The position numbers and the translations under genes are program-made. 64,000 nucleotides of DNA from Gammaproteobacteria bacterium Ga0074134 (lineage in GTDB: Bacteria; Pseudomonadota; Gammaproteobacteria; Ga0077554; Ga007554): NCBI GenBank assembly GCA_001464965.1, contig LNEJ01000004.1:1-64000 (forward strand), in the 5' to 3' direction. The notes under the pieces were generated by a model. That model saw only the letters and a list, made by a program, of their open reading frames with translations, did not search any database and was not told the DNA's origin. This document shows positions 20,071 through 38,741 of this stretch, in pieces; position 1 is the first letter of the stretch, and the number at the start of each line of letters is the position of its first letter.

Positions 20071-20940
20071 ATGAATGAATTGATTTCTAAAAGACGCTGC
20101 TCTTCAAGCGATGCCTTGCTGGTGGCGGCTCTACTGCTTTTTTCGGGCAGCGCTGGCGCCGGCTATGCGATAACCGCAAAAGATGTGCAAATGCTGCCAT
20201 CCTACTGCCGCCAACTCCCGGCTGGATTCTATGAACCCAATGCTCAAGCATACCGGATCGCGGGTTCTTTTCCGGCAGGGATGCCCCATGGCCATCATTA
20301 CTGCCATGGATTGAAATATATCGCGCGCGCCACGGCGCAGTCCACAAACCGGGGGGAGATACAAGAAAATCTGCGAGGCGCAGTGGATGAATTCGGGTAT
20401 GTATTGGGCCATACCGAAGTGATTCCGGAGTATTATCCCTATCTGGCCATGGTAAGAGCGGATCTTGGGCGGGTCTATGATCGCCTGGGAAAGCCTGCAG
20501 ACAGTTCACGGGAGTTTATGGAGGCGATCCGCCTGAAGCCTGATTATGTCGCGGCTTATATCGGCTTGATCGACTTCTACCGGAAACTTGGTAACCGCGC
20601 AGATGCATTGAAAACTGCCCAGGAAGGGCTCACGCATGTGCCGGAGTCCAAAACATTACAGCGGTATTATCGTGATCTGGGTGGAAAACTGCCTTATCCG
20701 GCGGCTATCGATAGCGCATCAAAAACAGACAATCCGGCAGAAGCTCCTTCGGGTAATAATACGGCGCCTAATGTAGCCGTGCCCGGCAAGGGGAACGACA
20801 CCCCGGCGGCAGAGCCGCCGGCAGCGTCTTCCCGCACAGATGATCAAAAACAATCCCAGGAAGCAAAACCCCAAGAGCCCAAAATTGGCTCCCCAACTAA
20901 CCCGTGGTGCCGCTTTTGTCCGCCACCCGAATTGCAATAA
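20071..20940 (+). CDS. exported TPR protein with a C-terminal CRFC motif
   Basis: 289 residues. The N-terminus (ALLVAALLLFSGSAGAGYA, about residues 15-33) is a signal peptide, so the protein is exported. Three TPR-like helix pairs lie around residues 95-205, including LGRVYDRLGKPADSSREFME and AAYIGLIDFYRKLGNRADAL. A Pro/Ala/Gln-rich low-complexity linker (about 215-272) leads to the end NPWCRFCPPPELQ, whose paired cysteines contrast with the linker. It is the only plus-strand gene in the island and converges with the GT2 fusion three bases downstream. Exact function unknown. TPR proteins often act as assembly factors for envelope polysaccharide machinery. Confidence 0.75.
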   Translation: MNELISKRRCSSSDALLVAALLLFSGSAGAGYAITAKDVQMLPSYCRQLPAGFYEPNAQAYRIAGSFPAGMPHGHHYCHGLKYIARATAQSTNRGEIQENLRGAVDEFGYVLGHTEVIPEYYPYLAMVRADLGRVYDRLGKPADSSREFMEAIRLKPDYVAAYIGLIDFYRKLGNRADALKTAQEGLTHVPESKTLQRYYRDLGGKLPYPAAIDSASKTDNPAEAPSGNNTAPNVAVPGKGNDTPAAEPPAASSRTDDQKQSQEAKPQEPKIGSPTNPWCRFCPPPELQ

Positions 20941-20943
20941 TGT

Positions 20944-23900
20944 TCAAGTTGGGTGTGCTTGGTGGCTAACCAGATCAGCCTCCATCCACGCCCTGAGTTT
21001 TTGCCTCAGCTCTTCCGCAACCTCGGGGTGGAGATCGATCACGTTCGAGTAGCATCCGGGGTCATTTGTCAGATCAAACAATTGGTGGATTTCTCCGTTA
21101 CGCATTGGCTGATAGGTGAATTTCCACTTTTCGGTTCTAATCATCCTATCCTTCGCGCGGACGATAATGTTCTGGTATTCCGGCTTGATCGCCAGAGTAC
21201 CGTTTCGCTTATCCGGCACCTCCAGCAAATCAGGCAGGTCGGGGTAATGGAGATGATCGGCGGGCATTCCCGGGGGCGTTGTCAACCAGATGCCGGTTTC
21301 ATTGTGAGCTATCAGGCCAAGGTTGATGTCGCAGTTGTCCATATAGGGCGCAAGCGATACGCCTTCCATCTCCGGTGGTTTTTCCACTCCAAGGAGATCC
21401 AGCAGGGTGGGTGCAATGTCCACGGTCCGCGTGATATGTGAAACCAGGCCGCCGGGTGGTTTGCGCGGATCTTTGATGATTAATGGGACGCGTGCGCTGT
21501 GGTCACCCATGACACTGTTTCCTTGCCCCCATGTGCCGTGTTCAAAAAACTCCATGCCATGATCGCTGTAGATGACGATGATGGTGTTTTCTTCCAGGCC
21601 GCAGGCCTTGATGTGTGCAACGATCCTGGCCACTTCATCATCAAAACTTTTTACACAGCCATCGTAGAGATTAATGATCTGATCAAGGTCGAACTCCTTT
21701 TTGCTATCACCCTGCCGACGGATGATCTCAAATGGATCCGTCAGGCGCGCCATCACAAACTTCGATTCGCCGTTGTATTCAGGATCGGAGAACAGCGTGT
21801 AATAGGGGTATTCCGATCCAAACGGAGGGTGGGTCGCCGCTATGAAGATGTTCAGGAAGAAGGGTTGATCCTTGCCGGCCAGATCGCTGATCATCGCTCG
21901 CCCATCACGCCCCACCTCACGTGTCAGAGGGACGCCGGCGAGATAATACAGTTCGGGCAAGAAGCGTTTGCCGAAGCGGTTATGCGTGAAGAGGGAAAGA
22001 AACAGACGCAGATCCTTCGGGCCCTGGCGGATCAGATATTTCAGGTTCCATTGGTCCTCGGGCAAGTCGCGTTGCGCAAAACCCAAATCGAATTTCTTCA
22101 TATCGGCCGCCGCCCAATCACCCACCACCGCTGTGCGATACCCGGCCTGAGCCAGTAGCGCGGGCAAGGCCGGTGTCGGCAGGGCCAATTCGTCGTCGCC
22201 CACGAAATTGTCGCGGACACCGTGGGTATGCGGCCAGGTTCCCGTCAACATGGAGATCAGGCTGGGGGCTGTACGGGCACAGGGTACGTAACAGTGGGTA
22301 AAATGCGTGCCGCGCATGGCGAGCGCATTCAGGTAAGGGGTCAGTTCGCGGTGATGCTGGCCGTTGCCTATGCGATCGGCACGCAGGGTGTCTGATCCGA
22401 CCATGACGATGTTCGGCCGGGCGGGGTCGGTTGCAGCGCCGCTGGCTGGCAGGGTTTCGTCTCCGGGCGAGAGCGTCCGGACCACGGCGGCCACTGTGCC
22501 CGCGAGTATCCCCCAAACCACCAGGCGAGTCCAATGTTCTTGGGTCAGCATATCGGTCAGGTCTGCAATGACCGCAAGCGCTGCCGTCAGGGCAAGAGTC
22601 AGCTGGAAGATCTGCAATCGTCCCGGTGAGAGCAGGTGCCACAGCGGATACAACCGGCTCAGCCGGTAATGCGACGAAGCGGCGATCGTGGCTGGCAGAT
22701 AGAGTAGATGGCGGCAGAACTGCAACGACGTGACGGCGCAGATGCCCCCGAAAGCGGCAATCACCGCGCCTGTAGTGGTGAATTCGAGGCCCGCAATTCG
22801 GTTCAGGGATGAATACACGGCGACACCTGCCACCGCCATAAATCCGCCTATTAGCAACGCCCAGGCGGCAAGGCGCGTGAAAGCGAACAGGGTGTAACGG
22901 GCGTAATGTTCTTGAATTTCCTGCTTTAGCGAGGGTCCCGTCCGTGAAAAACCGATGATCGACTTCACCAGAAGGGCCAAAGTGAATAGGGTGGTGGCCC
23001 CGGCGGCGGACAGTATGCCTTCCCATAATACCTGTGATGGCGATGACACAATGGCGGAGGCTGTCGCCATCCCTAACGTCAGGGCGAGGGGGGCGATCCC
23101 CGGCGCCATCTTGCCGGTGTCGACGGATAATTGTACATTCGTGGCAGAGGCGGGTTTTGCCGCTATCGTGCTGTGTATCAAACGTTGTAAACCGGCACGT
23201 AGCGGGTTCAACACGGCTGTCATCGTGCTGTGTATCAAACGTTGTAAACCGGCACGTAGCGGGTTCAACACGGCTGTCCATGTCGATTCAAATGCCCCAG
23301 ATAACTCCCCTACACTTGCAGCCAGCCGGACGAGATAAAAAATGCGGCGATTGTGATCTCGTGAAAAAACGACGCTGCCCAGGTAACTTAATACTTTATG
23401 GAACATGTAAAGCCTGGGCAGAGTCCCTTGAGAATGTACCAGGAAATTTGATAGCGAGCGGGAATAACTCTTACGAAGAATATAAGGTGTACTCATTCGC
23501 TCTGCATCAATAGAGTGTAACTGCCTTACATGAGGCAGGTAGTGTGTGGTATATCCATGTAACGCTGCTCTCTTCAGAAAATCATGGTCTTCTCCACCCG
23601 CCAAGTTGTGACCGATAGGCCCAAGATCGGTGGAAAATGTCCCAATCGTATCAAATACGCGGCGTCGAACCGTGATATTCCCTCCGCTGGGAAACCGATC
23701 TCCGGCGCTGAGGCGAATAGATTTGATTCCCAGATCAAACTCCGGGAAAGGCCGAATCGTTATCGCGTAAGGCTCCTTGGCATGTACCCACGATGGTTCG
23801 CTACCGTCCCAAGCCGGCCAAATGCGGCCGCAAAAAATATCGTCTTGCGGATAACACTTGATTCCATCCACGAGGTGCGCAAAAAAACCTGGCTCGACGA

Positions 23901-24207
23901 CTTGATCGTCATCGATAAAACACAGTACATCATGATCCGTGTGGGCGATGGCCGTATTCAGCGCGTAGGATTTCCCAGCTTTGGGTTCTTCCAGCCAGCC
24001 CAGCCTTAAAAAGGCTTGCGAGTGTGCCGAACGGAATGCCGAGAGTTGGGCTAGCGTGTCATCACTGCAATTGTTTGCGACAACCAATATGTCAATTGGT
24101 GTCGGTCCCGCGTAGCCAGCGGCATAAAGCGAGGCCAGTGTTTCGATGAGCGAGTGGCTGCGGTTGTAAGTGCAGATCACAACTGCGAGATTGGGTTTGG
24201 GGCTCAT
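20944..24207 (-). CDS. GT2 glycosyltransferase - membrane - sulfatase/alkaline-phosphatase-superfamily fusion
   Basis: A protein of about 1,087 residues. Residues 1-260 form a GT2 glycosyltransferase (VVICTYNRSHSLIETLASL, then FIDDDQVVEP with the metal-binding acidic triplet and the GGEDHDFLKRAALHGY acceptor motif). About 340-580 is a linker and roughly six hydrophobic segments. From about 600 comes an alkaline-phosphatase-superfamily domain beginning PNIVMVGSDTLRADR (first metal Asp), with YSDHGMEFFEHGTWGQ (second metal Asp-His) and the histidine in MGDHSARVPLII. The sulfatase signature is altered: TAPSLISMLTG has Thr where Cys or Ser normally becomes formylglycine, and Leu instead of Arg. 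Thr is the nucleophile in phosphoethanolamine and phosphoglycerol transferases of this superfamily. I start at the ATG at 24207; a TTG at 24306 would add 33 unrelated residues. Probably decorates an envelope glycan. Confidence 0.85.
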   Translation of the reverse strand: MSPKPNLAVVICTYNRSHSLIETLASLYAAGYAGPTPIDILVVANNCSDDTLAQLSAFRSAHSQAFLRLGWLEEPKAGKSYALNTAIAHTDHDVLCFIDDDQVVEPGFFAHLVDGIKCYPQDDIFCGRIWPAWDGSEPSWVHAKEPYAITIRPFPEFDLGIKSIRLSAGDRFPSGGNITVRRRVFDTIGTFSTDLGPIGHNLAGGEDHDFLKRAALHGYTTHYLPHVRQLHSIDAERMSTPYILRKSYSRSLSNFLVHSQGTLPRLYMFHKVLSYLGSVVFSRDHNRRIFYLVRLAASVGELSGAFESTWTAVLNPLRAGLQRLIHSTMTAVLNPLRAGLQRLIHSTIAAKPASATNVQLSVDTGKMAPGIAPLALTLGMATASAIVSSPSQVLWEGILSAAGATTLFTLALLVKSIIGFSRTGPSLKQEIQEHYARYTLFAFTRLAAWALLIGGFMAVAGVAVYSSLNRIAGLEFTTTGAVIAAFGGICAVTSLQFCRHLLYLPATIAASSHYRLSRLYPLWHLLSPGRLQIFQLTLALTAALAVIADLTDMLTQEHWTRLVVWGILAGTVAAVVRTLSPGDETLPASGAATDPARPNIVMVGSDTLRADRIGNGQHHRELTPYLNALAMRGTHFTHCYVPCARTAPSLISMLTGTWPHTHGVRDNFVGDDELALPTPALPALLAQAGYRTAVVGDWAAADMKKFDLGFAQRDLPEDQWNLKYLIRQGPKDLRLFLSLFTHNRFGKRFLPELYYLAGVPLTREVGRDGRAMISDLAGKDQPFFLNIFIAATHPPFGSEYPYYTLFSDPEYNGESKFVMARLTDPFEIIRRQGDSKKEFDLDQIINLYDGCVKSFDDEVARIVAHIKACGLEENTIIVIYSDHGMEFFEHGTWGQGNSVMGDHSARVPLIIKDPRKPPGGLVSHITRTVDIAPTLLDLLGVEKPPEMEGVSLAPYMDNCDINLGLIAHNETGIWLTTPPGMPADHLHYPDLPDLLEVPDKRNGTLAIKPEYQNIIVRAKDRMIRTEKWKFTYQPMRNGEIHQLFDLTNDPGCYSNVIDLHPEVAEELRQKLRAWMEADLVSHQAHPT
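23165..23278. repeat. 57-bp perfect tandem duplication inside the GT2 fusion gene
   Basis: Two identical 57-base units (23165-23221 and 23222-23278) encode two copies of the 19-residue block TAVLNPLRAGLQRLIHSTM (the last residue differs at the second boundary). The length is a multiple of three, so the frame is kept. The identity implies a very recent slip or duplication. It lies in the linker between the glycosyltransferase domain and the membrane segments. Confidence 0.95.
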
Positions 24208-24302
24208 GGCGTTACGAGGCTCTCGCGCTCGCGGGCTCCCCCCGTCCTCGGCCAACGGATTGTTCGGCGTAGAAGCACTACTGGCCACTCCTTGATAAGT
24301 AT

Positions 24303-24623
24303 TCAAATGTAGAAATCCCTAACCCTGAAAGGTGGCGCACTCAGCAATCGCTCCCCAATGAATTCGGAATTGCGAACATAAAGAGTATTACCACCGGTAT
24401 TGTATTTCCCGCCCAAATCGATCAACTGCCGCTCAAACGGCTTATATTGGCAGCTAGAGAAAGCGTGATTAATCAGTGTCTGGTGAATGTCCTCGTCGCT
24501 GAAACCGTAACGGTTACCGCTCTGGTTTAGCTCGATAATAACGGCGAGAAGGTCAGGATGGCGCAGCGTGCTCACGGCACCCTGCAACACCTCGTGCTCC
24601 CAGCCTTCAACATCCACCTTCAA
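24303..24623 (-). pseudogene. FkbM-type methyltransferase, 5'-truncated remnant
   Basis: 106 codons matching only the C-terminal part of an FkbM methyltransferase. It opens directly with the SAM-site strand KVDVEGWEHEVLQGA (complete family members have 100 or more residues before this). LLAVIIELNQSGNRYGFSDED follows. The apparent first codon is TTG, 7 bases after the stop of the upstream glycosyltransferase. The upstream half is missing and the preceding gene abuts the break, so a deletion or recombination is likely. Residual translation is possible but the SAM-binding core is gone. Confidence 0.8.
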
Positions 24624-24629
24624 GTGATC

Positions 24630-25556
24630 TTAGTCGAGTGCATGGCCATGCTTATGGAGCACTTTTAGCCACTCATTAATCAATTTGCCCTCGGTGCGCA
24701 TATCCCATTGGTAGCCGGTACGACAAAATGGGTAAATATTGTTTTCGACTGCCCAGATCAGGTCCGGCAGGTAGCGAATGTAATTCTCATCATGCCGCCA
24801 TGGGTGGATTGTCCAGTACGTATAAGCGGTGAGGTTCCACTGTTCGAAGTCCTTCTCCCTGAATGTATAAGTCAAGCTTTTTTCCAGAGGCTCACCGGAT
24901 TTTGCCTGCATCAACGGCAGGCAAATTTTGAGCTTTGCCATATCCATCAGGAAGTAGCGCGTTGAAGTAAAGTCAACACGCCGCCACTTGGTTGGCAAGG
25001 GCCGTTCAAACGAACGGCCAGTCAGCTTCTCGAGCCAAGTCTTCGCCAGGGGCGGCCCAGCCCGTGGGCATGTGACGATCACACTGGGCTCCTGCTGAAA
25101 CAACTCAATTCCATCAGCAATCCACGACCCGTTACCGGAACGATGAAAAAGCATGTCCGAATCGGCATGGAAGACATAATCACCCGTGCAACGATCCAAC
25201 GCGTATAAGTACTGGTAGATGGGGGCGCCTGAAAAGTCCTTGAGGTCGACCTTCTCGGTACCAAAGTACTTGTACAAGATTCGGTTTTGCTCGTGCCCAC
25301 TCCACGGGATGACGTCCACGCGATCGATGATTTTGTCCTCAAGCAGCCGCTGAAGAATATTCTCGATATCGTGTTGACTGCCCTGGATGCGTTGGGTGTA
25401 TTTTCCCTCTTGCTTTCCCGGGTCATAAGCGACCAGCCGCTCGGTGAACGGATAGTTGAGAGCCCGCATCATGTGGCGGAGGGTGGGTTCGAGAAAGGGG
25501 GCGTCCGTATTGCATACGTTTATGGTGAAGCTGACGCTAGGAGAGAGTGCACTCAT
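24630..25556 (-). CDS. glycosyltransferase-like protein (GT-A fold)
   Basis: 308 residues. It begins VSFTINVCNTDAPFLEPTLRHMM, a GT-A opening, and has the metal-binding DxD in YVFHADSDMLFHR (about residues 125-137). The C-terminal half is rich in aromatic residues (WNLTAYTYWTIHPWRHDENY). It resembles family 2-like enzymes but diverges from typical GT2; donor and acceptor are unknown. It starts one base after the stop of the next upstream gene, so they are co-translated. Its C-terminal end lies at the FkbM deletion junction, so the last residues (GHALD) may be altered. Confidence 0.75.
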   Translation of the reverse strand: MSALSPSVSFTINVCNTDAPFLEPTLRHMMRALNYPFTERLVAYDPGKQEGKYTQRIQGSQHDIENILQRLLEDKIIDRVDVIPWSGHEQNRILYKYFGTEKVDLKDFSGAPIYQYLYALDRCTGDYVFHADSDMLFHRSGNGSWIADGIELFQQEPSVIVTCPRAGPPLAKTWLEKLTGRSFERPLPTKWRRVDFTSTRYFLMDMAKLKICLPLMQAKSGEPLEKSLTYTFREKDFEQWNLTAYTYWTIHPWRHDENYIRYLPDLIWAVENNIYPFCRTGYQWDMRTEGKLINEWLKVLHKHGHALD

Positions 25557-25557
25557 G

Positions 25558-26535
25558 TTAATGAAATCCGATATTTCTTTTGTTTTTTACCCAACGCAAT
25601 GGTTTTCGAATTCCTTCCGGCAAACAGCAATAGGCTAACTTGAACAAGGTGTTTATGTCCAATGGCTTCAGTTTTATGGCTCGGAAGAAATGAGGGATTG
25701 CCTGGCGATAATCACCAATATTGTACAAATAGTGGTTAGCCACACCGCAATTGAGGGCATGCATGCGGCGAACATAGTCTTGTCGGTTGATTAGCGCGAC
25801 TGCTCCTGGATCGGCCCTGAATACGCTATCGATAGCCTTTAGCCGCAAAATAAGCATCTTATAGCCCTGCGTGGATTGCTGCGTTTCATGCTTGCGCCAG
25901 TAGCCTAGGATGGTTTGGATCTGTCCGATAGGATAGAACCTCGCGATTCGTAGCCACAGTTCGTAGTCGTCTACACCCGGAAGGTCTTCGTTGAACTGCC
26001 CAACTTCTTCAAATATCCCGCGTGGGATCATTGAGGTTAACGGTTGAATATCGTTGCTGATAAATATCTGGTTGAAAACGAAACCAATCTGAATTGACGC
26101 GCGTGGATTATCAAAATGGCTCTCATTGCGACATTGATATTGAGGCAGTAGCACACCATTTTGATCGATCAGTGCCAGATCGGAGTGGATTAGACCAAGC
26201 TCTGGGTGCTTACCAAAAGCTGCTATTTGAATTTTAAGCTTGTTTGGCAACCAGATATCGTCTTGATCTAGAAACGTAATGTAACTACCCGTTGCTTGCC
26301 TAAGAGCGTTGTTTCTACTTGCTGCTACTCCTTGATTTTTCGTGTTGCGCAGGTAAATTACTCTTGGGTCGTAAAAATACTGCCTTACAATTTCGTCAGA
26401 CCGGTCAGGCGAGTTGTCATTTACGATGATTAACTCAAGGTTATGGTGAGTTTGACTAAGCACGCTGTCGATGGCATTCGACAGATATCTCTCACCTCCG
26501 TAAACGGGCATAATTACAGATACTTTATTAAGCAA
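25558..26535 (-). CDS. GT2 family glycosyltransferase
   Basis: 325 residues. A typical GT2 domain: VSVIMPVYGGERYLSNAIDS (about 5-24), LELIIVNDNSPD (nucleotide Asp), and GSYITFLDQDDIWLPNKL with the DxD-type motif (about 89-104). DDYELWLRIARFYPIGQI marks the acceptor-side helix. The start is TTG at 26535 with GAGGT about 10 bases upstream. Base composition is clearly more AT-rich than the housekeeping genes, suggesting acquisition. Probably adds one sugar of the repeat unit. Confidence 0.88.
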   Translation of the reverse strand: MLNKVSVIMPVYGGERYLSNAIDSVLSQTHHNLELIIVNDNSPDRSDEIVRQYFYDPRVIYLRNTKNQGVAASRNNALRQATGSYITFLDQDDIWLPNKLKIQIAAFGKHPELGLIHSDLALIDQNGVLLPQYQCRNESHFDNPRASIQIGFVFNQIFISNDIQPLTSMIPRGIFEEVGQFNEDLPGVDDYELWLRIARFYPIGQIQTILGYWRKHETQQSTQGYKMLILRLKAIDSVFRADPGAVALINRQDYVRRMHALNCGVANHYLYNIGDYRQAIPHFFRAIKLKPLDINTLFKLAYCCLPEGIRKPLRWVKNKRNIGFH

Positions 26536-26614
26536 TTGTGGTTACCTCTGCCGTAATTTACATGAAGCATGTCTAATGGTGTCTGGCTCTTTGTCGCATG
26601 GGTTTGGAATAGCA

Positions 26615-27340
26615 CTAGTCATTGTGTATGTACTTTAGTGCCCATATGATTCTACGAATCAACTGATAGTATTTATCTCCAAACACCTTTGCGGTGATTG
26701 ACCTATATGAGTGTCTCTTGCAGGAATTAGCTAGGGCGACATATTGATCAATATCACTGATTAGGGGATGTAAGTTGTGAAAGGTATCCTCTTGAAGTTG
26801 AATCTCTCTCTTTATTCCAAAAAATAACAAATCAAAGGAGTCCCAGTTTGTTTGAAAATGAAAGGTTGAGAAGAGTTTTTTTAGGTCTACCTTTCTCTCA
26901 AAGTCTCGTTTAGTAAGGTTTCGGTAATAGTCCCATCCAATATCAATGGTGAGCGGTGAATCCTTTGGTGTGGTTTTCGACGTGCCATGCTCGGGGCGTC
27001 CGATAGTGGCGCATGTCATGACGATGAGCCCCCCGGGTCTGCAGAGTCGCACCATATTCTCAAAGGTTTCGTGCCAATAGGGGTTGTGCTCCATGACCTC
27101 GCACGATATCACCACATCAAAAGCATTATCGGGCGCATCATATTTCTGCCCTTCGCAAACCACGTCAACGTTCTTGCCGGGTGCAACGTCTAGACCTATG
27201 TACCGGCAATTTTGGAAGTAGTCCCGAACACTGCCATTGATATTTAAGGAGCCCACCTCTAGAACCCTCTGGTTCATGAAATAGTGAGGTAAGTGAACAG
27301 AAACTAAATTGACAAAGTGTCTTTGGCTCTCATGCGACAT
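26615..27340 (-). CDS. class I SAM-dependent methyltransferase
   Basis: 241 residues. The core is short: RVLEVGSLNINGSVRDYF replaces the classic glycine-rich loop, then YIGLDVAPGKNVD (acidic ribose contact) and FDVVISCEVMEHNPYWHETFENMVRLCRPGG, a Methyltransf_11-type motif. The last 70 residues are AT-rich and basic. It probably methylates a sugar or glycan terminus, inferred from position between glycosyltransferases. Low GC relative to the flanks. Confidence 0.8.
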   Translation of the reverse strand: MSHESQRHFVNLVSVHLPHYFMNQRVLEVGSLNINGSVRDYFQNCRYIGLDVAPGKNVDVVCEGQKYDAPDNAFDVVISCEVMEHNPYWHETFENMVRLCRPGGLIVMTCATIGRPEHGTSKTTPKDSPLTIDIGWDYYRNLTKRDFERKVDLKKLFSTFHFQTNWDSFDLLFFGIKREIQLQEDTFHNLHPLISDIDQYVALANSCKRHSYRSITAKVFGDKYYQLIRRIIWALKYIHND

Positions 27341-27382
27341 ACTGTACCCCTAATATTTGTGCGTCAAGGTTAAATGCGCGAG

Positions 27383-27660
27383 AGTGTCGCCATTTTTTGC
27401 AAAACCTTTTGGGACATCCAAGCCCCCGAGTAGATGCAAATTGTGGCGACAAGTATGCCTTCGGCGGCCTGTGTTCTCCTGCGTACGCTACGGCACCTCA
27501 CTTCGCGGGGTGCCATAGCTTTCACTATGACTTGACGTCGTGTCGTTGCTATCCCATTTTCTCTACGCCTGTGCTCTCGCACAGACTCCGACAAAATAGG
27601 AGACCCTATGGCTACACAGGGGTCGTCGCACACGCTTCGCTTCCCTTCCCTGTGCTCCTT
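27383..27660. repeat. structured repeat, long form, in a 449-bp gap (27341-27789)
   Basis: The gap between a methyltransferase and a glycosyltransferase holds no convincing gene. AGTGTCGCCATTT at 27383-27395 and a 27-base block beginning GGGGTCGTCGCACACGCTTC at 27619-27645 also occur near 38.9 kb, where they are directly joined. Here 223 bases separate them. That interval is full of hairpins: GGCACC/GGTGCC (27492-27514), CTGTGC/GCACAG (27569-27584), and GACCC/GGGTC (27602-27624). A 126-codon minus-strand frame crosses it but looks like translated repeat (Arg-rich, no domain). Confidence 0.65.
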
Positions 27661-27789
27661 CAATGCCTGCTTAGCGAATGCTCTAGGTAAATGGGCAAGC
27701 CGCCCTTCCCATAACGCAAGTCGAATGCGATTTCGCAGCGCTCTTGCCATTCAGACTGTTTCCGTCTTGCATGGAAAACTGTTCATATC

Positions 27790-28719
27790 CTAAACCTCAC
27801 GATATTGGTGGCGAACTTGCCACAGTCCGAGAAACGTTCCGAGAAAATGACAGACAATCATTTCTCGGTTAAATGCCTCGTCGCTTGGTTGGGTCAGATG
27901 CCCGACGATCGCATTGAAATTCGCACACATGAACTGTTGGAACAAGTAAAGGGGAATATTGCACAGCCGTCGCGTGCCTGGAACTCCACGGCTGGCGGCC
28001 AGGTTCCGGCTTGTTTGAAAGCGCCAGCGGCGAAAGTAGCGCTTCGTCATACGGAACGCTTCAACCTTATGGTGAACCCTGGATTCCCCAAGGAAGACTG
28101 CTTTCAGACCCGCGGCCAGAATACGCTCAAACATCTCACCATCTTCGCCGCTGGCGAGCACCTTCCCCTTGCGGCCACGATTTGTATCGAACAGGCCAAC
28201 ACGATCAAATACCGCTCGCCTCATTGCCATATTGGCGCCGAAAGGAGCTTGACTTGCCTCGGTGATCGGGTAGTCATCGGTTCGGTCAGTGCGAATTGCC
28301 AGGAAACCGTAAAACCGTTCAGTCAACCATTCAGGCGGCAGCGTTTCCCAGATTGGCGCGATGTACCCCCCGCATGCTGAGGCCTGATATTTTTCCAAGC
28401 CCCGCAACGTCGTCTCAAGCCAGTCCTGCTCGGGCAGTACGTCATCATCGGTAAACAAGAGTACTTTGCCTTGGGCGCAGGCAATGCCGTGGTTGCGCGC
28501 ATGGGAAAGCCCTTGCTGGCTTTCAAACTCGTAGCGCAGGACGGGCCAGTCTTTAATGAATTCTGTGACTATCTGCCGCGTATGATCACTGGAGTTGTTG
28601 TCCACGACAATGACTTCCCACGTGCGATCAGGCGCAGTCTGTTGTAACTTGAGCGCACCAAGCGTATCCATGAGGGATTCTGCCCGGTTATAGGTGCAAA
28701 CTATGACACTGGCTTCCAT
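27790..28719 (-). CDS. GT2 family glycosyltransferase
   Basis: 309 residues. VIVCTYNRAESLMDTLGAL (about 5-23), TWEVIVVDNNSSDHTRQIV, LFTDDDVLPEQDWL (the DxD acidic triplet, about 89-102) and SGEDGEMFERILAAGLKAVF (acceptor motif). The sequence resembles the N-terminal GT2 domain of the 1,087-residue fusion more than the other glycosyltransferases here. It is downstream of the sulfotransferase on the same strand, 73 bases away. Probable role: adding one sugar of the surface glycan. Confidence 0.88.
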   Translation of the reverse strand: MEASVIVCTYNRAESLMDTLGALKLQQTAPDRTWEVIVVDNNSSDHTRQIVTEFIKDWPVLRYEFESQQGLSHARNHGIACAQGKVLLFTDDDVLPEQDWLETTLRGLEKYQASACGGYIAPIWETLPPEWLTERFYGFLAIRTDRTDDYPITEASQAPFGANMAMRRAVFDRVGLFDTNRGRKGKVLASGEDGEMFERILAAGLKAVFLGESRVHHKVEAFRMTKRYFRRWRFQTSRNLAASRGVPGTRRLCNIPLYLFQQFMCANFNAIVGHLTQPSDEAFNREMIVCHFLGTFLGLWQVRHQYREV

Positions 28720-28792
28720 GGGTCATCCATCATATTTTTTGTTGACTATCAATTGCGAGTGGCGGAACAAAGTGAGCGAATGGCCGTGTTAT

Positions 28793-29716
28793 CTACCACT
28801 TGTAGCCAAGCTCCTCCGCCATGGGCGAGACTACGCGCTTTAACAGCCACTTTTCCAGCCTATTGACCTGGGCTTTTTCTCCACCCCGCTCCGAACTGCC
28901 CACTTTGGCCCCGAGAACAGAGCGATCAATCCGAATTTTCAGATGTGCTTCGATCTCCTCAAGAGGTGTGCGGCCGGCAACGAGGTCCTCATACCGAATC
29001 ACGAGCGCATCCAACCTCTTCGCCTCCCTGAGAAATCCTTCCATCAGTTCTCGCCAATGTTTGCCGAATGCCGTGGGTGTGAACACAGGCTCATCGGGAA
29101 ACGTGTTGTACCAGTTGCGGCCGTATCGGCAATAGGACTGGTAGGCATCCAGCGGATTGCGATATAGAAAAACGAATCGCGCCCTGGGGTAAAGCCAACG
29201 AAGATAAAAGCAATGCTCCACGTCCAGCCTGACTTCCTTGATGCCCCAGCGTGAAGCGCCGGCCGCCTTTGCTGGGTGTGCAAATAGGGTGTCGAATAAT
29301 GCCCGGTGACTATCGCGCAAATCCGCCAGGGACGGAAACAGATTAGCGATCCAGTTTCCCGACAGCTCTCCAGGGGGCGTGCCATCATAATAGTAATCCT
29401 GCGGAGGCCAGCCAGCCCGGAATGCCTTGGTGGTATCTGCCAAGGCTTGGATCATGCCGCATTCGTCGTAAGGCTCTCCCCAGATCAGCACGTCTTTGTC
29501 GGACATGATGAGCCGTTGCAGCAGGGTTGAGCCGGAACGCCAGCCTGCGGACAGCAGAAAGATGGGAGCCTCATCATCACCCGCATCCGCAGGCGGGCAG
29601 GTGGCCAGCAGCGTTTCGACACCGGACACAATGTCCGGATTCTTTTGCAATGCCTGGCGATGGGCAGCACGCGCCTGTGTGGGACCGATGAACGCGTTAG
29701 CTAGATATTTCAGCAT
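28793..29716 (-). CDS. sulfotransferase family protein (PAPS-dependent)
   Basis: 307 residues. The 5'-phosphosulfate loop is LSAGWRSGSTLLQRLI (about 55-70), a P-loop-like motif. The 3'-phosphate motif is RFVFLYRNPLDAYQSY (about 181-196). Both are hallmarks of PAPS-dependent sulfotransferases. There is no transmembrane helix, so it is cytoplasmic and would sulfate a sugar or lipid before export. It sits among glycosyltransferases of the same strand. A sulfated surface glycan would require a PAPS source, not seen in the window. The target is an inference. Confidence 0.85.
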   Translation of the reverse strand: MLKYLANAFIGPTQARAAHRQALQKNPDIVSGVETLLATCPPADAGDDEAPIFLLSAGWRSGSTLLQRLIMSDKDVLIWGEPYDECGMIQALADTTKAFRAGWPPQDYYYDGTPPGELSGNWIANLFPSLADLRDSHRALFDTLFAHPAKAAGASRWGIKEVRLDVEHCFYLRWLYPRARFVFLYRNPLDAYQSYCRYGRNWYNTFPDEPVFTPTAFGKHWRELMEGFLREAKRLDALVIRYEDLVAGRTPLEEIEAHLKIRIDRSVLGAKVGSSERGGEKAQVNRLEKWLLKRVVSPMAEELGYKW

Positions 29717-29756
29717 GGTACAGCCCTTAGCCTTTGCATATGTGAGTTTTTCAGGT

Positions 29757-30740
29757 TTATTTATACTTGAGAGTGCCTATGCGCCTCACCAGGCCGGCCA
29801 GCTCGTTTTTTGTCTCGTCGAACCTAAATTGCTGTGACCGATAGCCTTCCAGCAGGGCTAATACACGGCTTTTTAGATGCCGCCGCAGATACTCGGTTAG
29901 CATCTCCCGGTACATAGTGGTAAGTCTGAACGAGAACTTGCGGACCGCTCGATGGCTCCAGCGGAGAAAGGGATTATTCAGGTCGTCGGTGTTTCTCACA
30001 AGCAGTGTCACCAGGGCTTCCAGAACGTCTGTTTCGCTAAGGAGGCCGTTCTTATAACGCACAAGCACGTCGGCGGCCTTGACTTCACAAAACCTTGAGC
30101 AGTACAGCGCATCGTCGTGTCGCCGGAAGAAATAGAGTGGCTCAGAAATATGGCGCACGCCGAAGCGTTTTGCGATGCGAATGAAATAATCGTAGTCTTC
30201 AACAAGAAACAACTCAGGATCGTATTCACCCACTTCTTCGTATACCTTGCGCGTATAGAGAAAACAGGCGCCAATGTGATTCGATTTTTCTAGTTGAAGT
30301 TTGTTTGAAAGCCTTTCATGCCGGGCATCCAATGGATTACCGGCTGCGTCCAGATCGGCGAAGAGATAATAATCGGCGTATACGAACTCGCAATCTTTGG
30401 CTTGCAGAGCATCAACCATCTTTTCAATGGCATTATCCGCAAACACATTGTCGTCAGATGTCCAGGTCAGATAAGCGCCATTGGCGAGTGAAAACCCCTT
30501 GTTAAGCGCTCGCGGAAGTTTCAGATTTGGGTCGTTTTTGACATAGCGGATGCGCGCGTCGTCGAATGACTTGACCACGGTAGCGGTGTCGTCGGGTGAG
30601 TTGTCATCAACGATGATCAGCTCCAGGTTTTTGTATGTCTGTCTCAATACACTGCGAATAGCATCCGGCAGCACATGAGCCCGCTTGTAGGTGGGCAGTA
30701 CTATGCTGACGAGAGACTGCCTGGGTGCTTCGCTACTCAT
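29757..30740 (-). CDS. GT2 family glycosyltransferase
   Basis: About 327 residues. VSIVLPTYKRAHVLPDAIRS, LELIIVDDNSPDD, YLTWTSDDNVFADNAIEKM (DxD-like SDD) and VEDYDYFIRIAKRFGV. The ATG at 30740 overlaps the 3' end of wecB by eight bases, so this gene is translationally coupled to wecB; a further in-frame start at 30761 is possible. It acts with WecB in the same mRNA and so may add an N-acetylmannosamine-type residue; this is only an inference from position. Confidence 0.87.
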   Translation of the reverse strand: MSSEAPRQSLVSIVLPTYKRAHVLPDAIRSVLRQTYKNLELIIVDDNSPDDTATVVKSFDDARIRYVKNDPNLKLPRALNKGFSLANGAYLTWTSDDNVFADNAIEKMVDALQAKDCEFVYADYYLFADLDAAGNPLDARHERLSNKLQLEKSNHIGACFLYTRKVYEEVGEYDPELFLVEDYDYFIRIAKRFGVRHISEPLYFFRRHDDALYCSRFCEVKAADVLVRYKNGLLSETDVLEALVTLLVRNTDDLNNPFLRWSHRAVRKFSFRLTTMYREMLTEYLRRHLKSRVLALLEGYRSQQFRFDETKNELAGLVRRIGTLKYK

Positions 30741-31869
30741 GCCCTGGTTGTGCGCCTGCATCTTCGAGAATACGCTTCACAATCTGTGTGCTGGCCGTCC
30801 CATCCCCGTATGGATTTGCCCGGTTCGCCATGCCATGATACGCATCGGCGTCGTCAAGAAGCTTCGAAGCCTCTGCCACAATATCGTGGGCATTCATTCC
30901 GACAACTTTCACCGTGCCAGCCTCTACGCCTTCCTGCCGTTCCGTGACTTTTCTCAGTACCAGCACCGGTTTGCCCAGGCTCGGTGCCTCTTCCTGCAAT
31001 CCCCCCGAATCCGTCAGCACCATATAGGCCTGTTTCATAAGATGGACCAGCGGCATATAGTCCAAGGGGTCGATTAGCAACACATTATCGATTCCGGAGA
31101 GGATGCTGTTCACCACCTGCCGGACGTTCGGATTGCGATGCACAGGGTACACCAGCACGATCTTGTCCTTGTACTTGAGTGCCAGATCCCTGAGGCCGTG
31201 GCATATCGACTCAAACGGGCCGCCGAAGCTCTCGCGCCGATGTGCCGTAACCAGAATGATTTTTCTCGAATCGAATGGAATTGTTTCCAGGGGCGTGCCT
31301 ACAAAACTGTAGGGCCGGTTCGAAACATCGAGTAATGCGTCGATCACCGTATTGCCTGTCACTGCGATTTGACTGTCAGGAATACCTTCGTTAAGCAGAT
31401 GTTTTTTTGCGGTCTCGGTATGGGCAAAATACATGTCCGCCATGGAGTCGATGATTTTCCTGTTGGCCTCTTCGGGGTAGGGGTGCCGCTTGTCGAAAGT
31501 TCTGAGTCCGGCTTCAACGTGGCCGATCTTGACGCCGCAGTAAAAAGCGGCCAGGGCCGCCGCCATTGAAGTGGTTGTATCGCCTTGCACCAGCAGTAGA
31601 TCGAAATGCTCCTCGCGTAGAATACGGCTGACTTCCTGCAGCACGCTGATGGTGATGTGTTCCAGGGTCTGATTTTCCCGCATTAGGTTCAAGTCATAAT
31701 CTACCCGGATGTTGAATAGCTTGATCAGCGGTTCCACCATTTCCTTGTGCTGGCCGGTAAGACAATTCCTGTTGTCGATCAGTCCCGGATATTTTTCCAG
31801 TTCCGAAATGAGGGGTGCCATTTTAATAGTTTCGGGGCGGGTTCCGAAGACGGTAAGTACTTTAAGCAT
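30733..31869 (-). CDS. wecB: UDP-N-acetylglucosamine 2-epimerase (non-hydrolysing)
   Basis: 378 residues, GT-B fold. It interconverts UDP-GlcNAc and UDP-ManNAc for surface polysaccharide synthesis. Family signatures are VFGTRPETIKMAPLI (about 6-20), LVQGDTTTSMAAALAAFY (about 93-110), VGHVEAGLRTFDKRHPYPEE-type segment (about 113-132) and LTDSGGLQEEAPSLGKPVL (UDP-binding, about 294-312). The length is normal. Its ATG lies eight bases inside the 3' end of the alpha/alpha-toroid gene and its own end overlaps the next glycosyltransferase, so three genes are tightly coupled. Confidence 0.95.
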   Translation of the reverse strand: MLKVLTVFGTRPETIKMAPLISELEKYPGLIDNRNCLTGQHKEMVEPLIKLFNIRVDYDLNLMRENQTLEHITISVLQEVSRILREEHFDLLLVQGDTTTSMAAALAAFYCGVKIGHVEAGLRTFDKRHPYPEEANRKIIDSMADMYFAHTETAKKHLLNEGIPDSQIAVTGNTVIDALLDVSNRPYSFVGTPLETIPFDSRKIILVTAHRRESFGGPFESICHGLRDLALKYKDKIVLVYPVHRNPNVRQVVNSILSGIDNVLLIDPLDYMPLVHLMKQAYMVLTDSGGLQEEAPSLGKPVLVLRKVTERQEGVEAGTVKVVGMNAHDIVAEASKLLDDADAYHGMANRANPYGDGTASTQIVKRILEDAGAQPGHE

Positions 31870-32782
31870 GTTTGCCTTCCCCGCGCATTTTCAGGTGATA
31901 GGCGTCGAGAAAGTACTTCACCGCCCAACTGATTTCCGCGCCTGAAATGTATTGCGCACCCTTGCCGTAGCTGCCGTAGAACCCGCCGGATTTATTCTGG
32001 ATTTTTTCGAGGTAATGGATGGCGCGGTCGGCACGGTCCTTATTTCCCAATCGGTACCAGACGACGGCATACTGGGCGATGGCGGTTGAGCAGGTCCATT
32101 CAACATTTGGATAAGCGGGGATGCCGCCGTCGGGCCGCTGGCATTTTTCCACATCGGCCATGCCTCGGGTTGCCAGGTCGATCTCCCCCAGTTCCCATAG
32201 CGCCTCCATGGCATAGGCGTGAAAGTGTGCAAGCCGGTTGAAGGGCACCAGCGCTTCCTGTTGTTTGTAATAGGACAGCACGAAGTTGGCCGTCTCCACG
32301 TATTCAGGTACACCCAGCAGCTTGCCCGCCTGAATGAGCGGGGGAAGCACATAGGTGTGGATCAGATCGTTGGCGATGTCAGACCACTGCTCGGTCGATG
32401 GCGTGGTTAGACGACCATCCGGCGCTACCTGCGCTATGACCCAGTCGCACGCTTTCCGTAGCGGGGCTTCGATGCCGTCCATATCATCAAGTGCTACGCA
32501 TAGACCCCGCATCACTTGGCCGGTATCGAACGTGTAGGGCACGCCGTCGGGCGCGGGGAAAGCCCCGTCAGGGTGTTGTATGGAAAGCAGCCACCGGGTA
32601 CATGTCCGGGCCAGCTCCCGTTCATTCCAGTTATATAATGTTGGGATGTAGTAGCCGGTCACTTCTGGATAAGGTACTGGGGTCTTGGTGTGTACGATGA
32701 TTCCCTTATTCGCCACCATGTTCTTCTTGAACCAGTCCATGGCTCTCTCATAGCTTGGTGCTGGTTTTTGCCGGAAAAACAT
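31862..32782 (-). CDS. alpha/alpha-toroid (prenyltransferase-like repeat) protein in a polysaccharide operon
   Basis: 306 residues with repeated helical hairpins typical of alpha/alpha toroids: LLSIQHPDGAFPAPDGVPY, KCQRPDGGIPAYPNVEW and KIQNKSGGFYGSYGKG each carry the Q-x-x-x-G-x-F/I turn of the squalene/prenyltransferase repeat. No DxDD or zinc ligands of cyclases or prenyltransferases are obvious. Similar proteins occur in exopolysaccharide clusters (VpsJ-like annotations), with unknown activity. A role on the glycan chain (lyase, hydrolase or epimerase) is possible. First gene of the toroid-wecB-GT2 set. Confidence 0.7.
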   Translation of the reverse strand: MFFRQKPAPSYERAMDWFKKNMVANKGIIVHTKTPVPYPEVTGYYIPTLYNWNERELARTCTRWLLSIQHPDGAFPAPDGVPYTFDTGQVMRGLCVALDDMDGIEAPLRKACDWVIAQVAPDGRLTTPSTEQWSDIANDLIHTYVLPPLIQAGKLLGVPEYVETANFVLSYYKQQEALVPFNRLAHFHAYAMEALWELGEIDLATRGMADVEKCQRPDGGIPAYPNVEWTCSTAIAQYAVVWYRLGNKDRADRAIHYLEKIQNKSGGFYGSYGKGAQYISGAEISWAVKYFLDAYHLKMRGEGKHA

Positions 32783-33187
32783 CTTTCAATTCCTCAGTTT
32801 CGCAAAAATATTATGCAACATAATGATTTTTAAAATTTTTATATAAAAACTAATGCGTTTTTCACATGGAGGCAACTTTCGAAAACACGGTATTATATTA
32901 TAAGGAAGCGGGAGTTGCTCAGTCATGCACGCGGTACGTGCCAGCATAGATACACCAACCCGAACCTTATGGTGAATATACTGCTATAGTGTGTCCTATG
33001 GCGGCCGCATGGCTGGAACCTCACTATTGCGTCGTCTCGCTTTCCGTACTTCGGAAAATATCTGGAAGACACCAAGTACACTCAGTTCGCGGTTGTCGCA
33101 CGTCCACAGAATTAGCCAACCTCGTCCATGTTTGGCCCCCTCACTCACTGGGGGCTAGCTTGCACTTTGGTAGCGCACTCGAATTGG
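32783..33187. other. 405-bp intergenic region with AT-rich promoter-like part
   Basis: No gene is visible. Next to the toroid gene the DNA is very AT-rich (32800-32870), with the interrupted palindrome ATTATG-CAA-CATAAT at 32810-32824, suitable for a minus-strand promoter and operator. Near the other gene, GCCCCC/GGGGGC forms a hairpin around 33135-33157 that could end the upstream glycosyltransferase transcript; no T-run follows. The middle, 32880-33110, holds nothing I recognise. Confidence 0.4.
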
Positions 33188-34141
33188 CTAGGTCCAAAAA
33201 TACCTAAGTAATAGCTTGAAATGCTTGGTTTGTGGAAATGGCAACATGGAACGAAATAGGGCGCGGAGTCCCATCCATTTATTTTTATCACGAAGAAAAT
33301 AGGCCTTGGTGAAGTATGCATCGGCAAGATGGGTCTCGATAAGTTTGACCTGATTTGATATTTCTGCATGTTTTTTACGGTAATGACTGGTGAGCGATTG
33401 GGCTGATACCAAGCTATTTTCCAGCTGCCTCAGAGTTGCTTGATCTTTATCTTGGTCCGATAGCCAACCGAAGTTATTTCCATGGATTCGCCAATATGTT
33501 ACTGGTTCTTTCGTCAAAGCGAGTTTACACATGGTGGATGCCTTGATTGCCCAGCCAGATTCTGAAAACAGGCCGCTTTCATCGAACCCGCCCACAATGT
33601 TCCATGTTCCTTTTCGAGCCGCTGGCCTTTGAAAGTCGATAGGGACGGAATGCAGGAGTTCGGAGAACAGCGTGTCGTCGAACCGGTAAAGTCCATTAGT
33701 TTCTGTTGGGCAAACGCGTTGAATAATTCTGTCAATCGCTTTCTTTCTACTTTTTGCGGGATTGGTGGCATAAGGGCCAATTGGTTCAACCCCTAGAAAC
33801 AAGCAATCGAGATCCGGCAGATTGGCGAACGCATCGTGTATCTTCTCCAAAGCCGTAGGGGCAAGAAGATCGTCATCGTCCAAAAGGGTGATGATTTCTC
33901 CTGTTGATGCCCTGATGCCCGCATTTTTCGCTCGCGCGACACCAAGTGGTTTTTCATGCCTGAGAAAGACGGCTTTATCACCAAACAGAGCCTTCAACTT
34001 GTGCAATGAAAGGGGGGGCGTGGATCCGTCATCCACTATCACTGCTTCCCAGTTGGGGTACGTTTGCGCAGCAATGCTGTTGGCAGCTTCCTCTAAGAAG
34101 TCTGGCCGGTTATGCGCCGGAATGACGATGGAAATTTTCAT
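33188..34141 (-). CDS. GT2 family glycosyltransferase
   Basis: About 317 residues from the ATG at 34141 (MKISIVIPAHNRPDFLEEAA); the frame is open 28 codons further but those residues have no GT character. WEAVIVDDGSTPPL and IITLLDDDDLLAPTALEKIH (DxD) are clear. A long C-terminal half (NNFGWLSDQDKDQATLRQLE onward) is helical with possible acceptor contacts. It follows the FG-GAP lipoprotein gene on the same strand, 40 bases apart. Confidence 0.86.
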   Translation of the reverse strand: MKISIVIPAHNRPDFLEEAANSIAAQTYPNWEAVIVDDGSTPPLSLHKLKALFGDKAVFLRHEKPLGVARAKNAGIRASTGEIITLLDDDDLLAPTALEKIHDAFANLPDLDCLFLGVEPIGPYATNPAKSRKKAIDRIIQRVCPTETNGLYRFDDTLFSELLHSVPIDFQRPAARKGTWNIVGGFDESGLFSESGWAIKASTMCKLALTKEPVTYWRIHGNNFGWLSDQDKDQATLRQLENSLVSAQSLTSHYRKKHAEISNQVKLIETHLADAYFTKAYFLRDKNKWMGLRALFRSMLPFPQTKHFKLLLRYFWT

Positions 34142-34181
34142 AGGACGCACACTCAGGCAATGGCGCGAATAACCCAATGGC

Positions 34182-36173
34182 TCATTTAGATTCTTTGATC
34201 TGCATGATCTTGTTAGCTCCCACATTACGCAACTCTTGTACCACGCCGCTTGGCCAACGAATTTCTATTTTGTCGACCTGCGTGTGCTTGGCAAGGCCGA
34301 AATGCAAGCGCTGATGGTTTTGCCCTCGCTCATGCACGCCCCCATCCTGAACCCGTATCTGAGTCACGCCACCTGCGGACACACGCACCACGGCGCCGAT
34401 GCCATCACGATTGGATGTTGTTCCCTCCAGATCAATTTCCAGCCAGTGGTTGCCATTTCCGACATTGCGATATAGCCGGTAGGTGCCGTTTTCGGAGGGC
34501 AATCCCAGGCTACGGCCCATGCTTCCTCCCGTCGCGGCGAAAAGATCCAGAAACCCGTCGCCATCGAAATCAGCCGTCGTGACGGAATCGCCCACGCCGG
34601 CCCGGCTACCGGCTGCGCCTCCCGCTTTGGAAACCACATCGAAGTGCCCATCCCCCCGATTGAGCAGGAGCAGGTTTTCCTGTTTACCGATATCGCCCGA
34701 GGCCAGCACAAAAAGATCCACATCCATGTCGTTGTCGAAGTCGCCGGCAACAACATTCGTACCTGCAACAACACGCTCGTTGATGCCCCGCTTGTCACTC
34801 TCATCGACCAGCTTGCCACCCCGATTCATGAACAGCCGTCCGGGTGCTTCCTCGGCTTTCACGGCGTGGTCGATCGCCTCCAGTTCGGTAATGGCCTCGG
34901 AAGAGGTGACTTTTACCGCGATTTGCTGATACTTTGATTTGTCTCCCGCAAGCGCCTCACGCGGTGCGGTCACACGCACCTCCCACTTGCCTGGCGCCGT
35001 CATGCCGATATAAACCCCCGGCTGCTTACCCGGTTCGTTGGCAGGCATATCTGCGATACCTGGTGTTTTAGGCGACAAGCTGAACTTGAAATCCCCCGGA
35101 TGTGTGCCCCGTTTGCCAAGATGGATGCGATCAGCCGACACTGCATCAGCAGGCCAGGCAGATGCAACCCGGAATGTCAGTTGCCCGGATGAACGGAAGC
35201 TAAAGCCCGCTGGTTTGCCTACGTTGGCATAATCGTTCCGCACATCGGCGATGATCTCGTTGCTTCCAGTCTGGCCGAAAGCAACCGGGCCTGGCGGATT
35301 TTTTCGCGCCAGGTAGAGATCGATTTTCCCGTCGTTATCGAAATCACCAGCGGCGATGTCCTCATAAGCCGTTTGGGGGAGAAGATCGACTTCCAGCGCG
35401 GGCACTTTTGTGGTATCGAACACCTGCATAGCCCGATTATGTGACGAAACTCTGCATGCCAGATCGGGGTGACTGTTGTCGAGCTCGGTAATTATGCAGA
35501 ATATCGGCGACTTTGAGGCGAATTTCAGCACGTCTGTCGAGGCGGTGAATTTGCCATCTTGCTGAAGAAAGATAAAGGGCGGTTCAATGTTATCGAATCG
35601 GCTTTCCGCCCCCTCGAACAGATCGAGCCGGCCATCCCGGTTGAAATCGTACCACAGTGGCATGCGCGTCCGCCCGTAAGGGTTGGATACCCCGACGGCG
35701 GCGGCTACGTCTTCGAATTTGTCACCGTGATTCACGAAAAGCCGTTTCGGTTCCGTGCCCACCCCCCGGCCTGCTCCGGTTAACTGTACCAAATCCTGTC
35801 GGCCGTCATTGTCGAAATCGGCCCAGGCGGCCCCGTGCTTGTCACCTGCCAGATCCTGAGGCACGAAGAACTTGCCGGTCACATCCGCGAAGCGTCCCTT
35901 CCCCAGATTCCGGTACAACTTTGCATCGCTCAGGTGGTTGGTGACGTAAAGATCGGGCAGACCATCGCCGTCGAAATCGCCCCAGGCGGCGCCATGGGTC
36001 ATGCCGACATAGGCCTCAAGCCCGGAGTTGGTAGTCGCATCCTGGAAGAGAGTGAGTGTCTTTTCCTGACTGAAGCACCCTGCGAGCAAAATCATAGGGG
36101 TCGCCAATGAGGCTCTGCGCAGCGAGGAGCCGCAAATCATCTTTTTTATTGCAATCTTCTTTTCGGAATTCAT
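34182..36173 (-). CDS. CRTAC1-type FG-GAP/ASPIC-UnbV repeat lipoprotein
   Basis: 663 residues. The N-terminal signal ends in the lipobox LLAGC (Cys33), so it is a lipoprotein anchored in the inner or outer membrane. Repeated FG-GAP/VCBS blades with calcium-binding DxDxDG loops follow: WGDFDGDGLPDLYVTN, WADFDNDGRQDLVQ, AGDFDNDGKIDLYLA, VAGDFDNDMDVDLFVLA and TADFDGDGFLDLFAATGG. The end is an ASPIC/UnbV domain (WLEIDLEGTTSNRDGIGAVV, VHERGQNHQRLHFGLAK). This is a beta-propeller protein with no known catalytic site. In a glycan cluster it may bind or organise the polysaccharide outside the cell. Confidence 0.88.
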   Translation of the reverse strand: MNSEKKIAIKKMICGSSLRRASLATPMILLAGCFSQEKTLTLFQDATTNSGLEAYVGMTHGAAWGDFDGDGLPDLYVTNHLSDAKLYRNLGKGRFADVTGKFFVPQDLAGDKHGAAWADFDNDGRQDLVQLTGAGRGVGTEPKRLFVNHGDKFEDVAAAVGVSNPYGRTRMPLWYDFNRDGRLDLFEGAESRFDNIEPPFIFLQQDGKFTASTDVLKFASKSPIFCIITELDNSHPDLACRVSSHNRAMQVFDTTKVPALEVDLLPQTAYEDIAAGDFDNDGKIDLYLARKNPPGPVAFGQTGSNEIIADVRNDYANVGKPAGFSFRSSGQLTFRVASAWPADAVSADRIHLGKRGTHPGDFKFSLSPKTPGIADMPANEPGKQPGVYIGMTAPGKWEVRVTAPREALAGDKSKYQQIAVKVTSSEAITELEAIDHAVKAEEAPGRLFMNRGGKLVDESDKRGINERVVAGTNVVAGDFDNDMDVDLFVLASGDIGKQENLLLLNRGDGHFDVVSKAGGAAGSRAGVGDSVTTADFDGDGFLDLFAATGGSMGRSLGLPSENGTYRLYRNVGNGNHWLEIDLEGTTSNRDGIGAVVRVSAGGVTQIRVQDGGVHERGQNHQRLHFGLAKHTQVDKIEIRWPSGVVQELRNVGANKIMQIKESK

Positions 36174-36197
36174 GGTTGGGTCCTCAATGCACTAATC

Positions 36198-37373
36198 TTA
36201 CTGGCCAGTCTGGCGGAAAAGCCTGCCCAGTAGTGGCGTATTAGCCAAACGACTGATCACCGCCCGCATGCCACGCGTATAAGTGTTTGGACGGGGAGCA
36301 GTGGCGGAGCAGACTTCAAGGAACCGGCGTGATAACTCATTCGGTACAAAGTCGGCTGATCCGGCATGGCGAAGAGCACGGCCAGTCCACACCTGATAGA
36401 CGGTCTTATCTCCCAATACCTTACCAATAGCTTCGACCCATGCTTCAGCGTTACGGTAGTCCTGTATCAAGATTCCTCCGTCCCCGACGGATTCGGGCAA
36501 ACCGCCCCGCGCGCTGGCGATTACCGGGATACCGCATGATTGTGCCTCTATGGCGACCATGCCGAAGCCTTCTTCCCAAACGGATGGCACGAGCAGCAAC
36601 TTGGTCTGGCCATAGATCGACCGCATGTCGGAAACTCGCTGCTGGAAGCGCACGTTGGGCGTCTGCGCCAGCCGCTTCTCCAACTCCATCAGCGCTGCGT
36701 CGCTCAGTTTCCATGATTCGAGCAGCAGGAATTTTTCGGCAGGAAGGCGTTTCGCAATCTCGAAGAACGTATCGACACCCTTCACACGGAACGGATTGAT
36801 CATCGTTACATAGCCTTCCCGGTTGCCTTCCGTACCGAAATACAGATCGGAGGCTGGATAGACGACATGAGCACGACGCCCGATCACCTTGCGCACCTTG
36901 TTCGCCAGAAAACCGCTGCTGCATACGAGATGGCAGCCCAGGTCTGAAATCGACCGCAGCTCGGCCGGATCGAACTCCGCATCATGAACATAGAAAAGTC
37001 CCTGAATTCCCTTTTTGCTGGCGAGTTCGAGGATCTCTCTGGCACCTTCCAGTTGAGTCCAGAAAATATCGGGCTTGAAGCGGTCAATGAAGTCGTCCAA
37101 AGCGCTAATGAAATCCGGAAAAACATGTACCGGGTAGCCGCAGTCGAGTGCGCCGTTCCAGCCATTATTGCTCGCGGCTCTAATACCGAGAGTGGCGTAT
37201 TCCGAAGTATTGGGATAGTTCCACGATGACACCGAGTAGTCACTGGAGCCGATTGCCGCGCACTCAATCCCCAAGTCGTTTGTCAGGCTATATAGCAACT
37301 GATGCGCGCAGCGCGCCGCTCCTCCCAGGAAGAAGGGGTAGGGTGGGCGTTCACTGGCGTAGAGGATGCGCAT
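36198..37373 (-). CDS. GT4 family glycosyltransferase (GT-B fold)
   Basis: About 391 residues. The N-terminal domain begins MRILYASERPPYPFFLGGAARCAHQLLYS-like (split here). The C-terminal GT4 signature is in VPSVWEEGFGMVAIEAQSCGIPVIAS (about 270-295), with the donor-binding Glu pair EGFGMVAIE. The start is the ATG at 37373; a TTG four codons upstream is also in frame. It is a retaining glycosyltransferase, unlike the inverting GT2 enzymes around it. Same strand and probably same mRNA as its neighbours. Confidence 0.88.
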   Translation of the reverse strand: MRILYASERPPYPFFLGGAARCAHQLLYSLTNDLGIECAAIGSSDYSVSSWNYPNTSEYATLGIRAASNNGWNGALDCGYPVHVFPDFISALDDFIDRFKPDIFWTQLEGAREILELASKKGIQGLFYVHDAEFDPAELRSISDLGCHLVCSSGFLANKVRKVIGRRAHVVYPASDLYFGTEGNREGYVTMINPFRVKGVDTFFEIAKRLPAEKFLLLESWKLSDAALMELEKRLAQTPNVRFQQRVSDMRSIYGQTKLLLVPSVWEEGFGMVAIEAQSCGIPVIASARGGLPESVGDGGILIQDYRNAEAWVEAIGKVLGDKTVYQVWTGRALRHAGSADFVPNELSRRFLEVCSATAPRPNTYTRGMRAVISRLANTPLLGRLFRQTGQ

Positions 37374-37401
37374 AGTAATGATCAATTCGTAGCGGGGTGA
37401 T

Positions 37402-38663: not shown

Positions 38664-38741
38664 AAGATGTCAAAACGATATTTTTTTGAAGGTACTGTGA
38701 GTGCACCCAAGTCGTCACTTATGCACGGTCGATCCCGCAGG

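Follow-up and report, generated by a model that had tools for sequence, protein, structure and literature searches.

Fusion gene and its surroundings

In the 64,000-nucleotide stretch of DNA analysed here (the window), a single reverse-strand gene (20944..24306) unites a GT2 glycosyltransferase domain, six predicted transmembrane helices and an alkaline-phosphatase-superfamily domain (Pfam Sulfatase) in one open frame with no internal stop, bearing out the three-part polypeptide described in the earlier note on this sequence. Read from a TTG, the frame encodes 1120 aa, whereas an ATG at 24207, internal to the frame and taken as the start in the earlier note, would give 1087 aa; either codon may be the start, and the AlphaFold2 model is of very low confidence over residues 1-34. 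The GT2 domain (residues 34-345, 23272..24207, reverse strand; Pfam PF00535/PF13641) yields a Glycos_transf_2 match at residues 42-221 (E 9.8e-19), is modelled mostly with pLDDT >85, and possesses the motifs DDD (132-134) and GGED (237-240), which are kept in 56 and 53, respectively, of 62 fused proteins. Its best NCBIfam match, HpsE, lies below the cut-off of that family. It shares fold, DDD and GED motifs, and location in a polysaccharide cluster with the GT2s of polysaccharide loci; these are normally free-standing, whereas the one studied here is joined to a membrane alkaline-phosphatase-superfamily module. The linker contains an exact 57-bp tandem duplication (23165..23278, reverse strand), corresponding to two copies of a 19-aa unit of the type MTAVLNPLRAGLQRLIHST, which is probably recent since the close relative L083 has one copy. 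The six helices (22471..23094, reverse strand; residues 405-421, 424-456, 469-505, 511-536, 561-588, and 592-612) are predicted from the AlphaFold2 models and from mean hydropathy over 88 sequences. They are followed by the C-terminal domain (residues 628-1115, 20962..22425, reverse strand), recognized by both Pfam PF00884 and Foldseek, with a Sulfatase match at residues 631-974 (E 3.7e-43, 148 bits versus a cut-off of 25). The fusion gene is the sole carrier of a PF00884 match in the whole 2.9 Mb genome.

Upstream of the fusion gene, the window contains a polysaccharide gene cluster on the same strand (24303..42979), composed of GT2s, a GT4, methyltransferases, a sulfotransferase (28793-29716), a WecB-type epimerase (30733-31869), a Wzt with a C-terminal glycan-binding domain (40808-42073), and a Wzm-type permease (42161-42979). 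Related loci also hold Wzx-type flippases, polysaccharide deacetylases, and asparagine-synthase-like proteins. A convergent forward-strand gene (20071..20940), which stops 3 bp from the stop of the fusion gene, encodes a TPR protein with a hydrophobic, signal-like N-terminus. Members of this TPR family are found in 49 loci, directly adjoining downstream on the opposite strand in 31, and the protein may belong to the same pathway as the fusion protein.

Recurrence of the fusion and its exchangeable half

A scan of one genome per species retrieved 80 related loci. Judging from their frames, 63 encode the GT2, the membrane part, and the sulfatase-like domain fused, 12 encode the membrane-sulfatase-like gene alone, and five are cut by the end of a contig. 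The fusion is thus not obligatory, given the stand-alone copies, and the domain order that the earlier note had proposed to search for in other genomes is common among relatives. Because many independently assembled genomes carry the fusion, a sequencing or joining error, which the earlier note had named as a possible source of an artefactual union of two genes, is excluded. Carriers include Thiobacillus, Sulfuriferula, Candidatus Nitrotoga, Thauera, Aromatoleum, and several Gammaproteobacteria, and dozens of bacteria that cycle sulfur, iron, or nitrogen possess the fusion. The distribution of the module is sporadic, since it is present in 21 of the 369 genomes of a class sample and, among the 399 genomes of a separate phylum sample, just in the window's own. 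We found no published description of a glycosyltransferase-sulfatase fusion in the open-access literature searched. A phage origin was considered and rejected, with just distant generic sulfatase matches and one PHROG family of unknown function being retrieved.

The two halves of the protein are not equally conserved. The counterpart in a genome of the same genus (G003) is 87% identical across the full length of the fusion protein, with both halves 87-90% identical. In contrast, in another member of the genus (G002) and a member of the same family (G005) the sulfatase-like part retains 77-86% identity and the glycosyltransferase merely 46-49%. Typing of the N-terminal domain, for which 60 fused loci were listed (three of the 63 share their sequence with a genome already surveyed), distinguished three GT2 types: the window-like A1; A2, which has 46% identity to A1; and B, with ~27% across a short segment. 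As G002 and G005 match the module far better than the glycosyltransferase, and as three GT2 types occur, these comparisons indicate that the sulfatase-like module is the constant part and the glycosyltransferase the variable one.

Active site and relatives of the C-terminal domain

In HMMER alignments to solved sulfatases, T679 of ARTAPSLISMLTG (22270..22272, reverse strand) falls at the position of the sulfatase nucleophile, and L683 at that of the Arg in the C/S-x-P-x-R signature. Thr679 is invariant in 88 of 88 sequences, as are the predicted metal ligands Asp639 (in SDTLRAD, 22390..22392) and Asp915-His916 (in SDHG, 21559..21564), all encoded on the same strand, and H826 together with a long list of further residues. 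The GKxH motif of S1 sulfatases is also lost: its Lys is replaced by D730, again invariant, and its His by A732, at a position occupied by A or C, with C the commonest. Since Thr679 fills the nucleophile slot and Leu683 replaces the signature Arg, formylglycine chemistry is, on this alignment, excluded, and so is any other Cys or Ser as the nucleophile. The earlier note had read the same Thr and Leu replacements, the impossibility of formylglycine chemistry, and a likeness to Thr-nucleophile phospho-transferases from the window sequence, naming a Cys or Ser elsewhere at the nucleophile as what would speak against it; these points stand, now with Thr in all 88 relatives. A missing formylglycine-generating enzyme is unusable as a supporting argument, the genome encoding about nine FGE-domain proteins of unclear role.

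By alignment only, D639, T679, D915, and H916 match the pattern of EptA/LtaS-type enzymes, that is, a Thr nucleophile with acidic, Asp, and His metal ligands (E246, T285, D465, and H466 in MCR-1, PMC5175174; E255, T300, D475, and H476 in LtaS, PMC7576196). Asp, nucleophile, Asp, and His likewise make up the metal site in EfAS and choline sulfatase (PMC12421950, PMC5870055). Phospho-transfer through Thr679 would be consistent with the first of these analogies. The loss of several sulfatase active-site residues might also suggest a domain without catalytic activity that serves as an anchor or sensor, positioning or regulating the glycosyltransferase; the regulator YejM/LapC of E. coli (so designated by its NCBIfam name) offers a precedent among such domains. 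We regard this as very improbable, considering the invariance of the metal ligands, Thr679, H826, and many more residues, and the generally higher conservation of the sulfatase-like half than of the exchangeable glycosyltransferase half.

The closest solved relatives of the domain are hydrolases. Both the PDB profile search and the Foldseek search with either AlphaFold model rank first the S1 sulfatases, choline sulfatase, and phosphonate monoester hydrolases (PDB 5g2v, 6g5z, 7ptj, 2vqr, and 4uph), which have the same fold, with Foldseek E values of about 1e-20 to 1e-22 for the sulfatase-fold matches. The fusion protein differs from the S1 sulfatases in having Thr for Cys/Ser, Leu for Arg, and Asp for Lys, and from all these enzymes in being membrane-anchored and fused to a GT2. 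Neither EptA nor LtaS appears among the 50 best PDB fold matches. Sequence similarity to EptA/MCR-1, LtaS, OpgB, and YejM, which like the fusion protein have N-terminal membrane helices followed by a catalytic domain, is weak, and the hhalign probability is 9% for E. coli OpgB and 93% for LapC/YejM. Structure prediction, which the earlier note had suggested for comparison with EptA, LtaS, and sulfatases, hence upholds the sulfatase-superfamily fold and does not support a particular kinship to EptA and LtaS. The domain perhaps works like these two enzymes, yet cannot be counted as a demonstrated member of their family.

Since its closest solved structures are hydrolases, the C-terminal domain may hydrolyse rather than transfer. 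Acting as a phosphodiesterase, phosphatase, or atypical sulfatase, it would then trim or proof-read a glycan, lipid-linked or sulfated, that the GT2 and its neighbours have made, an idea with which the sulfotransferases encoded in the window cluster and in about 20 related loci agree. We nonetheless consider it unlikely, because the formylglycine residue, its Arg, and the Lys and His of GKxH are all replaced, so that the known sulfatase mechanism is gone, and because membrane-bound Thr-type members with known function are mostly transferases. The annotation 'sulfatase' is probably wrong for this group.

Membrane topology and proposed function

The full-length AlphaFold2 model (mean pLDDT 86.6) contains six membrane helices, and a model of the membrane and catalytic parts, begun at the second helix, contains the other five (pTM 0.90). 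Loops 447-471 and 531-563 have on average 4.4 and 5.2 K+R per sequence, compared with 0.3 and 1.3 in the opposite loops. In 84 of 88 sequences the positive charges fall in loops 2-3 and 4-5, not in 3-4 and 5-6; the segment behind the last helix is positive too. TM1, the helix that precedes the first helix of the stand-alone form, occurs in 61 of 62 fused proteins, whereas every complete stand-alone protein lacks it (two positives in the stand-alone set, L056 and L070, are contig-end fragments and are not counted as complete). A module that itself begins on the outer side needs one such additional helix to be joined to a cytosolic glycosyltransferase. From the six helices, the positive-inside counts, and the tie between TM1 and fusion, the placement of both catalytic domains on the cytosolic side is a well-supported prediction.

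The earlier note had instead suggested a coupling across the membrane and had asked for the topology. In such a coupling, the GT2 would work in the cytosol and the C-terminal domain in the periplasm, like EptA, LtaS, or OpgB. This arrangement agrees with the Thr nucleophile and metal-ligand pattern of EptA/MCR-1 and LtaS, and a distant Thr-type relative (L099) has five helices, the usual odd number. In EptA/MCR-1, LtaS, OpgB, and YejM an extracytosolic domain follows five helices, and in E. coli OpgB and LapC, judged by eye, a single helix lies between a positive loop and the catalytic domain. The models of the fusion protein, by contrast, show six helices, both positive loops would end up outside in 84 of 88 sequences, and TM1 appears precisely where a cytosolic glycosyltransferase is fused. 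The catalytic domain also contains on average 8 Cys, of which C672, C676, C884, and C1085 are near-invariant with no evident pairing in the sequence. We thus judge coupling across the membrane to be rather improbable, with helix count and charge distribution predicting that the C-terminal domain lies on the cytosolic side together with the GT2.

The explanation that we favour, at roughly even chances, is that of a bifunctional, cytosol-facing, membrane-anchored enzyme of cell-surface polysaccharide synthesis, which combines sugar addition with phospho-group transfer via Thr679. The GT2 domain would transfer a sugar from its nucleotide donor onto a glycan carried on a lipid, at the cytosolic side of the inner membrane. 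On the same side, the C-terminal domain would bind a metal ion through Asp639, Asp915, and His916 and use Thr679 as the nucleophile, which would accept a phospho-group to form a phospho-threonine intermediate; the donor might be the headgroup of a phospholipid or an alcohol activated by a nucleotide. The phospho-group would then be passed on to the glycan of the GT2 before an ABC exporter or flippase carries it out. We infer both the action of the two domains on the same glycan and the nature of the donor. A point against this cytosolic reading is that the catalytic domain is extracytosolic in all the membrane-bound Thr-nucleophile enzymes compared here (EptA/MCR-1, LtaS, and YejM). O-antigen ABC exporters frequently depend on a modification at the end of the chain (PMC9445017), a requirement that a cytosolic decorating enzyme would fit.

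More tentatively, the related loci may represent a widespread class of Thr-nucleophile phospho-transferases, so far undescribed, that are membrane-bound and face the cytosol. Their glycosyltransferase half would be interchangeable, like a cartridge, and a single chain would both elongate a lipid-linked glycan and decorate it with a phospho-group, perhaps as a cap, ahead of its export. We know of no earlier polysaccharide transferase of the alkaline-phosphatase superfamily on the inner side of the membrane, and the fusion protein would be the first if this were true. Polysaccharide decoration by this superfamily could then be linked, within a single polypeptide and on the cytosolic side, to the addition of a sugar, and the natural fused, split, and glycosyltransferase-swapped versions provide a tractable set for testing such coupling.

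Three further genes of the upstream cluster deserve mention. A 106-aa frame at 24303-24623 matches an FkbM methyltransferase over the C-terminal third alone and is probably a truncated remnant, since the frame at that place is longer in G003 (L083 545-1501). Next to wecB in the polysaccharide operon, 31862-32782 encodes a protein with toroid-like similarity of the squalene-hopene-cyclase or prenyltransferase type, which is kept in nine loci and may be a glycan enzyme. Finally, an FG-GAP/UnbV-ASPIC repeat protein is encoded at 34182-36173, with copies 50-63% identical in six related loci.
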